From Halogeometricum limi (GTDB lineage Archaea; Halobacteriota; Halobacteria; Halobacteriales; Haloferacaceae): 64,000 nucleotides of DNA. Made by a program: the position numbers and the translations under genes. The notes below the pieces were generated by a model. The model saw nothing but the letters and a program-made list of their open reading frames with translations, made no database searches and was not told the DNA's origin. The stretch's first letter is position 1. Each line of letters opens with the position of its first letter. Shown here piece by piece: positions 57,510-61,756 of this stretch. The stretch is from positions 310,001 to 374,000 of the forward strand of contig NZ_FOYS01000003.1 of assembly GCF_900115785.1 (NCBI RefSeq), given 5' to 3'.

Positions 57510-57584
57510 TGGGTTGGGGCAGATTTGAACTGCCGGCCTCCTCCATGTCAAGGAGGTGTCATAACCAGACTAGACCACCAACCC
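57510..57584 (-). tRNA. tRNA-Val (GAC)
   Basis: On the minus strand GGGTTGG pairs with CCAACCC and discriminator A (base 57510). Anticodon stem CCTCC/GGAGG closes loop TTGACAT, anticodon GAC. T arm GGCAGTTCAAATCTGCC. No intron and no encoded CCA. Confidence 0.97.
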
Positions 57585-57830
57585 GGTGTGCTGCGTACAT
57601 CGCGCCCGTCTGAGCGCATCTCTTCGTATTCCGGGGATACAATTAAGGGTTGCGAATTGAAACGCCGTCGTTCGATTCGCCCGACGGAACGGCGCTTCGT
57701 CGAAGCCGACCCCGACGCCCTCCGCTTCGGAGACGAGAGGTACTCGCGTGGCGAGCGGAACCCCGACAGGCTTAAGCCGATGTACTTGTTTGTACATTAT
57801 AACCCGAACACGTACATCGGTGTCTCTACC
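57585..57830. other. tRNA-trp intergenic region
   Basis: Divergent region between tRNA-Val (minus) and trpD. A TATA-like TTATAA at 57797-57802 and TGTACA-type boxes serve trpD. The rest shows an open frame without support and no further feature. Confidence 0.6.
57777..57820 (+). promoter_or_regulatory. TGTACA boxes around the trp operon TATA element
   Basis: Three half-related sites: TGTACt at 57781-57786, perfect TGTACA at 57791-57796, and cGTACA at 57811-57816. CCGATGTAC (57777-57785) and GTACATCGG (57812-57820) form a perfect 9-bp inverted repeat. They flank TTATAA, 31 bases from the trpD ATG. TGTACA is the consensus of the TRP box bound by TrpY in Methanothermobacter; whether a TrpY-like protein acts here is inference. 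Confidence 0.6.
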
Positions 57831-58865
57831 ATGACGCTTCAAACCTACATCGAACGAGCGACGGAGGGCGAGGACCTGACGCTGGACGAGGCCCGCGAGG
57901 CCGCGCGACTCGTCTTCGAGGAAGCGACCGACGCGCAGATCGGCGCGCTGTTGACCGCTCTCCGCGCCAAGGGCGAGACGGAGACCGAAATCGCGGGGTT
58001 CGCGCGGGGGATGCGCGACGCCGCGCTCACCATCGAACCCGACCGACGACCGCTCGTCGACACCTGCGGCACCGGCGGCGACGACTACGACACCATCAAC
58101 GTCTCGACGACCAGCGCCATCGTCGCCGCGGGCGCGGGCGCGGCCGTCGCCAAACATGGCAACTACTCCGTCTCCTCCTCGTCGGGGAGCGCGGACGTGC
58201 TGGAAGTCGCTGGCGCGGACGTGGCCGCGGAACCGCCGGCCGTCGAGGAGGCCATCGAACGCGACGGCATCGGCTTCATGCTCGCGCCGGTGTTCCACCC
58301 CGCGATGAAGGCCGTCATCGGCCCGCGCAAGGAACTCGGCATGCGGACCATCTTCAACGTCCTCGGCCCGCTTACGAACCCCGCGGGCGCGCAGGCGCAG
58401 GTCGTCGGCGTCTACGACCCCGACCTCGTCCCCGTCCTCGCCCGCGCGCTCACGCAGATGCCCGTCGAACGCGCACTCGTCGTCCACGGTTCCGGGATGG
58501 ACGAGATAGCCCTGCACGACGAGACGGTCGTCGCCGAAGTCCGCGGCGACGAGATAGAGGAGTACACCATCTCGCCCGCGGACCTCGGCCTCGATTCGGC
58601 ACCCGTCTCCGAGGTGGCGGGCGGCACGCCCGAGGAGAACGCGGCGGACCTGCGCGGCATCGTCACCGGCGAGGTGACCGGCCCGAAGCGCGACATCATC
58701 CTCGCGAACGCGGGCGCGGCAATCTACGTCGCCGGACTGGCCGACTCGCTCGCCGAGGGGGTCGAGGCGGCCGCCGAGGCCATCGACTCCGGCGCGGCCG
58801 CGGAGACGTTCGCGGACCTCTGCGGCACCGACGCCGAGACGACGACCGAGTCGGCGGAGGCCTGA
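57831..58865 (+). CDS. trpD: Anthranilate phosphoribosyltransferase
   Basis: 344 residues from ATG 57831. Joins anthranilate to PRPP, the second tryptophan step. VDTCGTGGDDYDTINVSTTSAIVAAG (PRPP/Mg site), KHGNYSVSSSSGSADVLE (anthranilate/PRPP site), PVFHPAMKAVIGPRKELGMRTIFNVLGPLTNP are complete. First gene of trpDFEG, the arrangement known from Haloferax volcanii. Next gene starts 1 base after the stop. Confidence 0.96.
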   Translation: MTLQTYIERATEGEDLTLDEAREAARLVFEEATDAQIGALLTALRAKGETETEIAGFARGMRDAALTIEPDRRPLVDTCGTGGDDYDTINVSTTSAIVAAGAGAAVAKHGNYSVSSSSGSADVLEVAGADVAAEPPAVEEAIERDGIGFMLAPVFHPAMKAVIGPRKELGMRTIFNVLGPLTNPAGAQAQVVGVYDPDLVPVLARALTQMPVERALVVHGSGMDEIALHDETVVAEVRGDEIEEYTISPADLGLDSAPVSEVAGGTPEENAADLRGIVTGEVTGPKRDIILANAGAAIYVAGLADSLAEGVEAAAEAIDSGAAAETFADLCGTDAETTTESAEA

Positions 58866-58866
58866 G

Positions 58867-59520
58867 ATGGTCCGCGTCAAGATCTGCGGCGTGACCTCCG
58901 AGGCGGACCTCGACGCGGTGGAGGCGGCCGGTGCGGACGCCGTCGGCCTCATCGCGGACGTCCCGGTCGACACGCCGCGCGAACTGTCGCTCGTCCGGGC
59001 GGGCGAACTGGCCGCCGCGGCCCCGCCGTTCCTGACGACGACGCTCGTGACGATGCCGGAGACGGTCGGCGACGCCATCGACGCCGGGACCGCGGTGAAC
59101 CCCGACGTGCTCCAGATTCACGGCGACTTCGACGGCGAGGACTTCCGCGCGATTCGCGCCGGTGCCGACGCGCGCGTGTTCGCCGTCGTCGACGCCGAAG
59201 CCCCCCAGCGCGCGCGAGCGCTCGACGGCGCGGTTGACGGCGTCGTCGTCGACTCCGTCACCGCGGGCGGCGCGGGCGGGACGGGAGAGACGCACGACTG
59301 GAAGCAGACGGCGGACGTCGTCTCGACGCTCGACTCGCCGGTCGTCCTCGCCGGCGGACTCACGCCCGAGAACGTCGCCGAGGCCGTCGAGACCGTCGCT
59401 CCTTACGCCGTCGACGTTGCCAGCGGTGTCGAGTCCAGCGGCGGCGTGAAAGACCACGACGCGGTCCGGCGATTCGTCCGCGAAGCGAAGGCGGTCGAGA
59501 CGCGGGAGGCGACGGCGTGA
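58867..59520 (+). CDS. trpF: Phosphoribosylanthranilate isomerase
   Basis: 217 residues. MVRVKICGVTSEADLD holds the catalytic Cys 7 (KICGVT); the catalytic Asp is in the central VDSVTAGG block; VVLAGGLTPENVAEAV is the phosphate-binding end of the TIM barrel. Third step. One base from trpD and 4-base overlap with trpE (GTGA at 59517-59520). Confidence 0.94.
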   Translation: MVRVKICGVTSEADLDAVEAAGADAVGLIADVPVDTPRELSLVRAGELAAAAPPFLTTTLVTMPETVGDAIDAGTAVNPDVLQIHGDFDGEDFRAIRAGADARVFAVVDAEAPQRARALDGAVDGVVVDSVTAGGAGGTGETHDWKQTADVVSTLDSPVVLAGGLTPENVAEAVETVAPYAVDVASGVESSGGVKDHDAVRRFVREAKAVETREATA

Positions 59521-61136
59521 GTCGTTCCGACGGCGCGGAGACGCCGCTCTCGCTCACGCGCGAGGCGTTCCGCTCGCTCGTCGCGGACGAGGACGAGGCC
59601 GTCGTCGCGCACCTCACCGCCGACCTGCCGACGACGACGCCGCTCACCGCCTACGCCGCACTCGCAGACCGGAGCGACTACGGCTTCCTCTTAGAGAGCG
59701 CGGAGAAGACGGCGTCCAGTGACCCCGCTGGCGCGTTCGCTCCGGACCACGCGACGGCCGACAGACACGCGCGCTACTCGTTCGTCGGCTACGACCCCGA
59801 CGCCGTCGTCACCGTCGGCCCCGACGGGTCGACCGTCGAATCGCTCGGTGGGCGCGCCGCCGACTACGTCGTCCCGGACGACGGCGACGTGTTGGACAGT
59901 CTCCGCGGCGCGTTGCCGAACCTCTCGCGCGTCGGCTTCCCCGACGACGACAGACAGCGACTGCGCGGCGGCCTCGTCGGCTTCCTCGCGTACGAGGCCG
60001 TCTACGACCTCTGGCTGAACGAGGTGGGCGTCGAACGCCCCGAGACTGACACGCCCGACGCGCAGTTCGTCCTCACCACGAAGACGCTCTCGTTCGACCA
60101 CGCCGAGGAGACGGCGACGCTCGTCTTCACGCCCGTCGTCGGCCCCGAAGACGACCCCGACGAGGTGTACGACGAACTCCGCGCCGAGGCCGAACGGGTC
60201 CGAGCGACGCTCCGCGACGCCGAACGTCCCGAGACGGGCGGGTTCGTCCGCACGGACGAGACGGCCGGACCGCAGGCGGAGTACGAAGCCGCCGTCAGGA
60301 CGACGAAAGAGCACGTCTTGGACGGCGACATCTATCAGGGCGTGATATCCCGCGTCCGCGAACTCCGCGGGCAGGTGGACCCGATGGGGCTGTACGAGGC
60401 GCTCCGCGAGGTGAACCCCTCGCCGTACATGTACCTGCTCCGCCACGACGACAGACACGTCGTCGGCGCGAGTCCGGAGACGCTCGTCTCCGTCCACGGC
60501 GACAGAGTCGTCTCGAACCCCATCGCGGGCACCTGCGAACGCGGAACCAGTCCGGTGGAGGACCGCCGACTCGCCGGAGAGATGCTCGCCGACGGCAAAG
60601 AGCGTGCGGAGCACACGATGCTCGTGGACCTCGCGCGGAACGACGTGCGGCGCGTCAGCGAGGCCGGGAGCGTCCGCGTCGAGGAGTTCATGAACGTGCT
60701 GAAGTACAGCCACGTCCAGCACATCGAGTCCACCGTGACGGGGACGCTCGCGCCCGAGTACGACTCGTTCGACGCGACGCGGGCGACGTTCCCGGCGGGG
60801 ACGCTCACCGGTGCGCCGAAAGTGCGCGCGATGGAGATAATCGACGACCTCGAACTGACGCCGCGCGGCGTCTACGGCGGCGGCGTCGGCTACTACTCGT
60901 GGTCCGGCGACGCCGACTTCGCCATCGTCATCCGGACGGCGACGGTCGAACGCAGAGACGACGAAGACGTGATATCCGTCCGCGCGGGCGCGGGACTCGT
61001 CGCCGACAGCGACCCGACCGCCGAGTACGAGGAGACCGAACAGAAGATGGGCGGCGTCCTCGCGGCCGTCGAGCGCATCGAATGCGAAACTGCCCCCGAA
61101 ACGGTCGAAGACGGGCCGGAGGCGGTGAGTCGATGA
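59517..61136 (+). CDS. trpE: Anthranilate synthase component I
   Basis: 539 residues from GTG 59517. Makes anthranilate from chorismate with TrpG. The tryptophan feedback motif LLES is present (DYGFLLESAEKT, about 57-68). Catalytic region YQGVISRVREL, GTCERGTSPVEDRRLAGEML, EHTMLVDLARNDVRRVSEAGSV, AGTLTGAPKVRAMEI and VRAGAGLVADSDP are in order. End overlaps trpG by 4 bases (ATGA). The feedback motif suggests control by tryptophan. Confidence 0.96.
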   Translation: MSRSDGAETPLSLTREAFRSLVADEDEAVVAHLTADLPTTTPLTAYAALADRSDYGFLLESAEKTASSDPAGAFAPDHATADRHARYSFVGYDPDAVVTVGPDGSTVESLGGRAADYVVPDDGDVLDSLRGALPNLSRVGFPDDDRQRLRGGLVGFLAYEAVYDLWLNEVGVERPETDTPDAQFVLTTKTLSFDHAEETATLVFTPVVGPEDDPDEVYDELRAEAERVRATLRDAERPETGGFVRTDETAGPQAEYEAAVRTTKEHVLDGDIYQGVISRVRELRGQVDPMGLYEALREVNPSPYMYLLRHDDRHVVGASPETLVSVHGDRVVSNPIAGTCERGTSPVEDRRLAGEMLADGKERAEHTMLVDLARNDVRRVSEAGSVRVEEFMNVLKYSHVQHIESTVTGTLAPEYDSFDATRATFPAGTLTGAPKVRAMEIIDDLELTPRGVYGGGVGYYSWSGDADFAIVIRTATVERRDDEDVISVRAGAGLVADSDPTAEYEETEQKMGGVLAAVERIECETAPETVEDGPEAVSR

Positions 61137-61756
61137 GTCTCCGCGTCGTCGTCGTCGACAACTTCGACTCGTTCACGTACAACCTCGTGGAGTATCTCTC
61201 CGAGCAACGCGTCGACGGCGAGGCGGTCGAGGTCCTCGTCAGGAAGAACACGGCCTCGCTCGACGAGATTCGCGAGTTGGACCCGGACGCACTCGTTCTC
61301 AGTCCGGGGCCGGGACACCCGAAGAACGACCGCGACGTCGGCGTGACGAACGAGGTGCTCACGACGCTCTCCCAGTCGGTTCCGACGCTGGGCGTCTGCC
61401 TCGGCCTCGAAGCGGCGGTGTACGCCTACGGCGGCGAGATAGGCCACGCGCCCGAACCGATTCACGGCAAGGCGTTCCCCGTCGACCACGACGGCCGCGG
61501 CGTGTTCGCCGGACTCGAACAGGGCTTTCAGGCCGGGCGTTACCACTCGCTCGTCGCCACGAGCGTTCCCGACTGCTACGAGGTGTCGGCGACGACGGAC
61601 CACTTCGGCGAGGAACTCGTGATGGGCGTCCGCCACCGCGAGTTCCCCATCGAGGCGGTGCAGTTCCACCCCGAGAGCGTCCTCACGGCCGTCGGTCACG
61701 ACGTCGTCCGGAACTTCCTGGACGTCGTCGTCGCCGACGAACGCGCGGTCGTCTGA
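61133..61756 (+). CDS. trpG: Anthranilate synthase component II (glutamine amidotransferase)
   Basis: 207 residues from ATG 61133; a GGAGG at about 61118 precedes it. Class I GATase: VVDNFDSFTYN, LSPGPGHPKNDRD, nucleophile Cys in LGVCLGLEAAV, catalytic HPE in VQFHPES. The usual Gln after the nucleophile loop is Glu (GLE not GHQ), as I recall in other haloarchaeal TrpG; effect unclear. Last gene of trpDFEG. Confidence 0.94.
   Translation: MSLRVVVVDNFDSFTYNLVEYLSEQRVDGEAVEVLVRKNTASLDEIRELDPDALVLSPGPGHPKNDRDVGVTNEVLTTLSQSVPTLGVCLGLEAAVYAYGGEIGHAPEPIHGKAFPVDHDGRGVFAGLEQGFQAGRYHSLVATSVPDCYEVSATTDHFGEELVMGVRHREFPIEAVQFHPESVLTAVGHDVVRNFLDVVVADERAVV

Follow-up and report, generated by a model that had tools for sequence, protein, structure and literature searches.

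The trpDFEG locus and its promoter

The tryptophan biosynthesis operon trpDFEG of the haloarchaeon Halogeometricum limi is encoded in the stretch of DNA analysed here, a window of 64,000 nucleotides (contig NZ_FOYS01000003.1, positions 310,001 to 374,000; coordinates below are those of the window). The block at 57764–57823 would contain both the promoter and the operator of this operon. The putative operator consists of four TGTAC-like boxes lying on one face of the helix, which extend from just past the TATA box through the predicted transcription start site into a short 5' leader; a similar array heads the second tryptophan operon, trpCBA. Judging from its conservation and arrangement, the array is almost certainly the binding site of a regulator, and it probably mediates repression. 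The locus contains the following features:

57764–57776, + strand: conserved TFB recognition element (BRE) and TATA box, CGACAGGCTTAAG; information content of columns −7 to +4 peaks at 2.2 bits (80 non-redundant promoters)
57771–57776, + strand: TATA box CTTAAG, inside the BRE/TATA element
57779–57786, + strand: box 1, GATGTACT; core GTAC at 57782–57785; T, G, A and C columns conserved in 77–80 of 80 promoters
57790–57797, + strand: box 2, TTGTACAT; core GTAC at 57792–57795; G, C and A invariant (80/80)
57801–57805, + strand: box 3, degenerate, AACCC; A in 79/80 and the C at 57805 in 80/80
57811–57817, + strand: box 4, CGTACAT; core GTAC at 57812–57815; C and A invariant (80/80); located in the predicted 5' leader
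57819–57823, + strand: Shine–Dalgarno-like GGTGT (consensus GGTGA); G, G, T and G in 71–73 of 80
57831–58865, + strand: trpD, anthranilate phosphoribosyltransferase, first gene of trpDFEG (Pfam PF00591/PF02885)
58867–59520, + strand: trpF (PF00697)
59517–61136, + strand: trpE (PF00425/PF04715)
61133–61756, + strand: trpG (PF00117), with the start inferred from the open reading frame

The original prediction had described a TGTACA and two near-copies of it in the trpD promoter, and all three are present: TGTACA at 57791–57796, TGTACT at 57781–57786, and CGTACA at 57811–57816. The 9-bp inverted repeat noted around them is also exact (CCGATGTAC at 57777–57785 and GTACATCGG at 57812–57820). Across the trpD promoters, its outer CCG/CGG is weakly conserved; the conserved symmetry is the palindrome ATGTAC-N6-GTACAT, formed by boxes 1 and 2. 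A single copy of TGTACA carries little weight, since eight are found in the window against 2.5 expected, and it is the arrangement and conservation of the boxes that count instead. An exact search of the 3.6-Mb genome with RTGTACNNNNTTGTACAY finds it once, in the trpD promoter. A tRNA-Val (GAC) gene (57510–57584) is divergent to trpD, with a gap of about 246 bp between them.

The claim that the boxes flank the TATA element had to be corrected. The TTATAA at 57797–57802, which had been taken as this element, is not conserved, and relatives show CACAAC, TGTAAG, and other sequences there. The TATA box conserved across trpD promoters is CTTAAG or CTTATA at the position of 57771–57776, preceded by a BRE-like CGACAGG; the boxes therefore lie downstream of it. 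In haloarchaea, the distance from the first base of the TATA hexamer to the transcription start is usually about 30 bp, so the predicted transcription start of trpD is 57801, where 79 of the 80 promoters have an A, as the window does. The array thus spans the region from just past the TATA box, across the predicted start site, up to the translation start. The GGTG at 57819–57822 stands 8 bp before the trpD ATG and resembles a Shine–Dalgarno sequence, in keeping with a short leader; the GGTGT is presumably complementary to the 3' end of 16S rRNA.

Conservation of the array at both trp operons

The comparison of trpD promoters included 105 sequences from about ten family-level groups: 80 named haloarchaeal loci, four congeners, 20 more genomes picked across the class at family level, and the window itself; counts per column were made on 80 non-redundant promoters. 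The block, including the boxes, was found in all 105 of these orthologous promoters, matching the consensus at 32–49 of 51 positions, while shuffled upstream sequence never exceeded 24 of 51. The original prediction thus withstood its own refuting condition, a lack of boxes at orthologous trpD genes. The information content of the block reaches 2.3 bits per column. The columns upstream of the arrays contain 0.05–0.15 bits each, with about 0.05 at 10–40 bp before the trpD TATA box. One locus (L091) was considered as an exception without boxes and was dropped as such, as its block is displaced by about 140 bp further upstream and the boxes are present there.

The check at trpCBA suggested by the original prediction was positive: related boxes were found in all 40 trpC promoters from genomes of the host's family (column counts were made on 34 of them). 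They fit the consensus GCAAGNCTTATGAACAGATACGTACATTAGTGTACANTRATGRACG at 31–43 of 48 positions, and the promoter of the host genome itself is GCAAGCCTTATGTGCAGATGAGTGCGTTATTGTACAATGATGAAC. At this operon, box 1 touches the TATA box, box 4 coincides with the start codon region, and the trpC gene begins where the array ends. Coding constraint may contribute to the conservation of this fourth box.

The conserved C residues of both arrays follow in steps of 10 bp. In trpD promoters, they are located at +14, +24, +34, and +44 from the TATA start (77, 80, 80, and 80 of 80), and in trpC promoters at +8, +18, +28, and +38 (34, 34, 33, and 30 of 34). The lag-10 self-similarity of the trpC profile was reached in none of 5000 column permutations; for trpD, column permutation gave p = 0.0002 at lag 20 and p = 0.029 at lag 10. 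The best alignment of the trpD and trpC profiles is in register, at an offset of +2. Because of these 10-bp steps, the self-similarity, and the profiles matching in register, the array at both operons is read from the alignments as four boxes with a 10-bp period on one helix face. The third trpD box is degenerate, being generally AACAC. Relative to the TATA box, the arrays of the two operons are shifted by 6 bp; therefore, it would be the boxes, rather than the TATA box, that set the place of the protein.

It could be supposed that the resemblance to TGTACA arose by chance in an ordinary promoter, as the abundance of this hexamer in the window might suggest. The universal conservation of the boxes, their exact 10-bp spacing, and their presence at both trp operons refute this, and the promoters of the trpY gene (discussed below) in the same genomes show only a TATA box; the probability of a chance origin is negligible. 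Another explanation is that the block encodes a leader peptide or an RNA attenuator sensing charged tRNA. The ATG at 57780 does open a frame continuous with trpD in the window (MYLFVHYNPNTYIGVSTMTLQ), and the conservation extends past the predicted start site. However, in many relatives the third codon is an in-frame stop (ATGTACTGA), the frame differs, or the ATG is missing, and the in-frame stops rule out the leader peptide. Moreover, this ATG follows the TATA box by a few bp and would precede the transcript, and the same boxes are present at trpC, where the gene begins as the array ends. This explanation as a whole is very improbable.

A search for RTGWAC-N6-GTWCAY in 40 genomes revealed 94 sites, compared to 15 for the reversed control, and many of them are at trpD or trpC. 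Among the matches listed and inspected, no other recurrent promoter was found; the non-trp ones fell within genes, at the starts of ordinary genes, or at unrelated loci. In a three-box scan of five congeners, promoter recurrence was observed solely at trpC. Thus, as far as the scanned genomes indicate, the regulon seems to be confined to the two trp operons.

Probable repression and the candidate binding protein

The placement of the boxes downstream of the TATA box in trpD agrees with a repressor obstructing RNA polymerase. Since the region from the TATA box to the start codon holds all the boxes, a block of RNA polymerase is the simplest mechanism, to which interference with TBP might be added at trpC. 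The suggested geometry, in which the boxes would block TBP/TFB, finds no support in its original form: at trpD, a block of RNA polymerase is likelier, although at trpC box 1 does touch the TATA box. A repressor, dimeric or multimeric, would bind the array when the supply of tryptophan or aromatic amino acids is ample and keep RNA polymerase from the start site, so that both trp operons would be turned off together. The likeliest binder would be the single-copy haloarchaeal TrpY-family helix-turn-helix (HTH)–ACT protein, with its ACT domain as the sensor.

A search of the host genome for ACT domains turned up a single short protein with the expected architecture (167 aa; genome G000, contig C8, 58690–59190, minus strand; L155). 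It matches the NCBIfam family NF053754 (TrpY family) with 239.8 bits at a cut-off of 180, so a TrpY-like HTH–ACT protein of the kind that the original prediction had called for does exist. The family was found in all 194 near-complete genomes sampled from the class and in 118 of the 119 genomes sampled across the phylum. In the host's family, TrpY is missing from one genome (G021), which is only 82% complete and in which the trpC boxes are retained. For TrpY relatives, no solved structure was found. Phylogenetic profiling was tried for the binder and was uninformative, as both trpD and TrpY occur in 194 of 194 genomes. The genome of the L091 locus (G211, metagenome-derived) contains two TrpY-family genes, one of them below the cut-off; possibly, this is a mixed bin or a paralog. 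In some relatives outside the haloarchaea (other Halobacteriota; L368, L371), the trpY-family gene is near a gene recognised by eye as EPSP synthase-like (aroA), which is a weak link to aromatic synthesis.

Several observations weigh against TrpY, or against tight control of these promoters in general. The trpY gene is not linked to trp genes: it is located on contig C8 near a hisB-like gene, while trpDFEG is on C3 and trpC is on C8 at a distance of 0.85 Mb. In the neighbourhoods of 80 trpDFEG loci, no regulator gene is regularly adjacent, and this applies to TrpY as well. No conserved boxes were found upstream of trpY in 30 genomes, where these promoters show only a TATA box. As TrpY is nearly universal in the phylum sample, its co-occurrence with trp does not discriminate. 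The haloarchaeal homologs belong to unexamined branches, apart from the TrpY of Methanothermobacter thermautotrophicus, and the homolog of Thermococcus kodakarensis does not regulate trp (PMC6737238). In Halobacterium salinarum, another regulator, LrpA2, is up 14.9-fold without aromatic amino acids and was suggested to act here (PMC4162585), and a passage of PMC13147458 citing Large 2007 calls the Haloferax volcanii trpCBA promoter not tightly regulated. TrpY is thus the leading candidate for the binder, with chances that are about evenly balanced.

Autoregulation of trpY was also considered. The host has ACGTGCATTAATGAAC upstream of trpY, but it is not conserved beyond the genus, and this idea was rejected. 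A half-box, GTGCATTAATGA(AC) or GTGTACA-like, stands just before the trpY TATA box in the host's genus (L155, L156) and a few neighbours (L157–L159) and not elsewhere; it may reflect lineage-specific autoregulation or chance.

In another explanation, a regulator other than TrpY, for example of the Lrp/AsnC type (LrpA2) or a TrmB homolog, would use the array as its operator and repress the two trp operons according to the supply of aromatic amino acids. Octamers of the Lrp type frequently bind arrays that are phased with the helix. LrpA2, with the rise mentioned above, was proposed as the regulator in H. salinarum (PMC4162585), and a TrmB homolog was proposed in Haloarcula hispanica (PMC10817205). 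However, no TGTAC-type site is reported for either protein in the literature examined, archaeal Lrp proteins are described as binding AT-rich inverted repeats, and the trpDFEG neighbourhoods do not favour any regulator. A non-TrpY regulator is therefore a tentative possibility, although a substantial one. In eight loci, among them L035, an Lrp/AsnC-like gene was noticed by eye at a distance of about 5 kb on the upstream side of trpD; it is too distant and too rare for a general trp regulator.

Published physiology suggests that the two operons respond in common to aromatic amino acids. In H. salinarum, a lack of aromatic amino acids leads to strong induction of trpCBA, and crippling the pathway raises both trp operons (PMC4162585). 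In Har. hispanica, both respond together with no TrmB site nearby, and the authors expect another factor (PMC10817205). The array gives this co-response a concrete candidate site. The boxes are not described in the open-licence papers that were examined.

Taken together, we lean towards a phased operator at both trp operons bound by a repressor, with TrpY as its likeliest binder. In its general form, we favour to the same degree a haloarchaea-wide four-box TGTAC operator, which at both trp operons occupies the region from the TATA box to the start codon, with no other consistent location, and which would be read either by a TrpY without the Trp2 signal and autoregulation or by a regulator not yet tied to tryptophan in any archaeon. 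For haloarchaeal trp control, the array pinpoints a site in tractable genera such as Haloferax and Haloarcula and offers one protein as a candidate. If TrpY does bind it, this would provide a function for a TrpY branch described as unexamined (PMC6737238).

Comparison with known systems

As for the Lrp/AsnC proteins of Halobacterium (LrpA1, LrpA2), the likeness is in physiology, since LrpA2 responds to aromatic amino acid starvation; the sites differ, being TGTAC-type boxes here and AT-rich inverted repeats as described for Lrp-type proteins.

Tar (TK0271) of T. kodakarensis is an activator that binds TGGACA-N8-TGTCCA upstream of BRE/TATA and is encoded within the aro operon (PMC6737238). Like the Tar site, the haloarchaeal palindrome is common to separate aromatic amino acid operons, which makes it conceivable that the boxes are an activator site, as in Thermococcales. 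Unlike the Tar sites, however, the boxes begin at the TATA box or beyond it and cover the start site, where a bound protein would obstruct the polymerase, and the spacer between boxes is not the N8 of Tar. An activator site is therefore improbable, and repression is preferred.

The TRP box of M. thermautotrophicus TrpY is reportedly TGTACA. This protein binds TRP boxes in the trp promoter (PMC6737238). The likeness of the haloarchaeal system to it consists of TGTACA-type boxes in the trp promoters (105/105 for trpD and 40/40 for trpC) and a genome encoding a TrpY-family HTH–ACT protein; by analogy, tryptophan-dependent repression would be the expected outcome here. The differences are in the layout and in the regulator. 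Haloarchaeal trpD carries its four boxes past the TATA box at 10-bp intervals, and two separate trp operons have the site in common. In M. thermautotrophicus, trpY adjoins trp and is divergent from it, and TRP boxes at trpY provide autoregulation, whereas haloarchaeal trpY is unlinked and has no conserved boxes. In addition, Trp2 is said to be the only Trp of M. thermautotrophicus TrpY, with a role proposed for its codon. Position 2 is Trp in all 12 non-haloarchaeal TrpY proteins aligned (L354–L371) and Phe in the haloarchaeal ones (L155–L184), 28 of 30 of which contain no Trp at all. Thus, of a haloarchaeal counterpart to the TrpY/TRP-box system, the boxes and the TrpY-family protein are in place, while the linkage, the boxes at trpY, and Trp2 are not; the array is a TRP-box-type archaeal operator in a new form.
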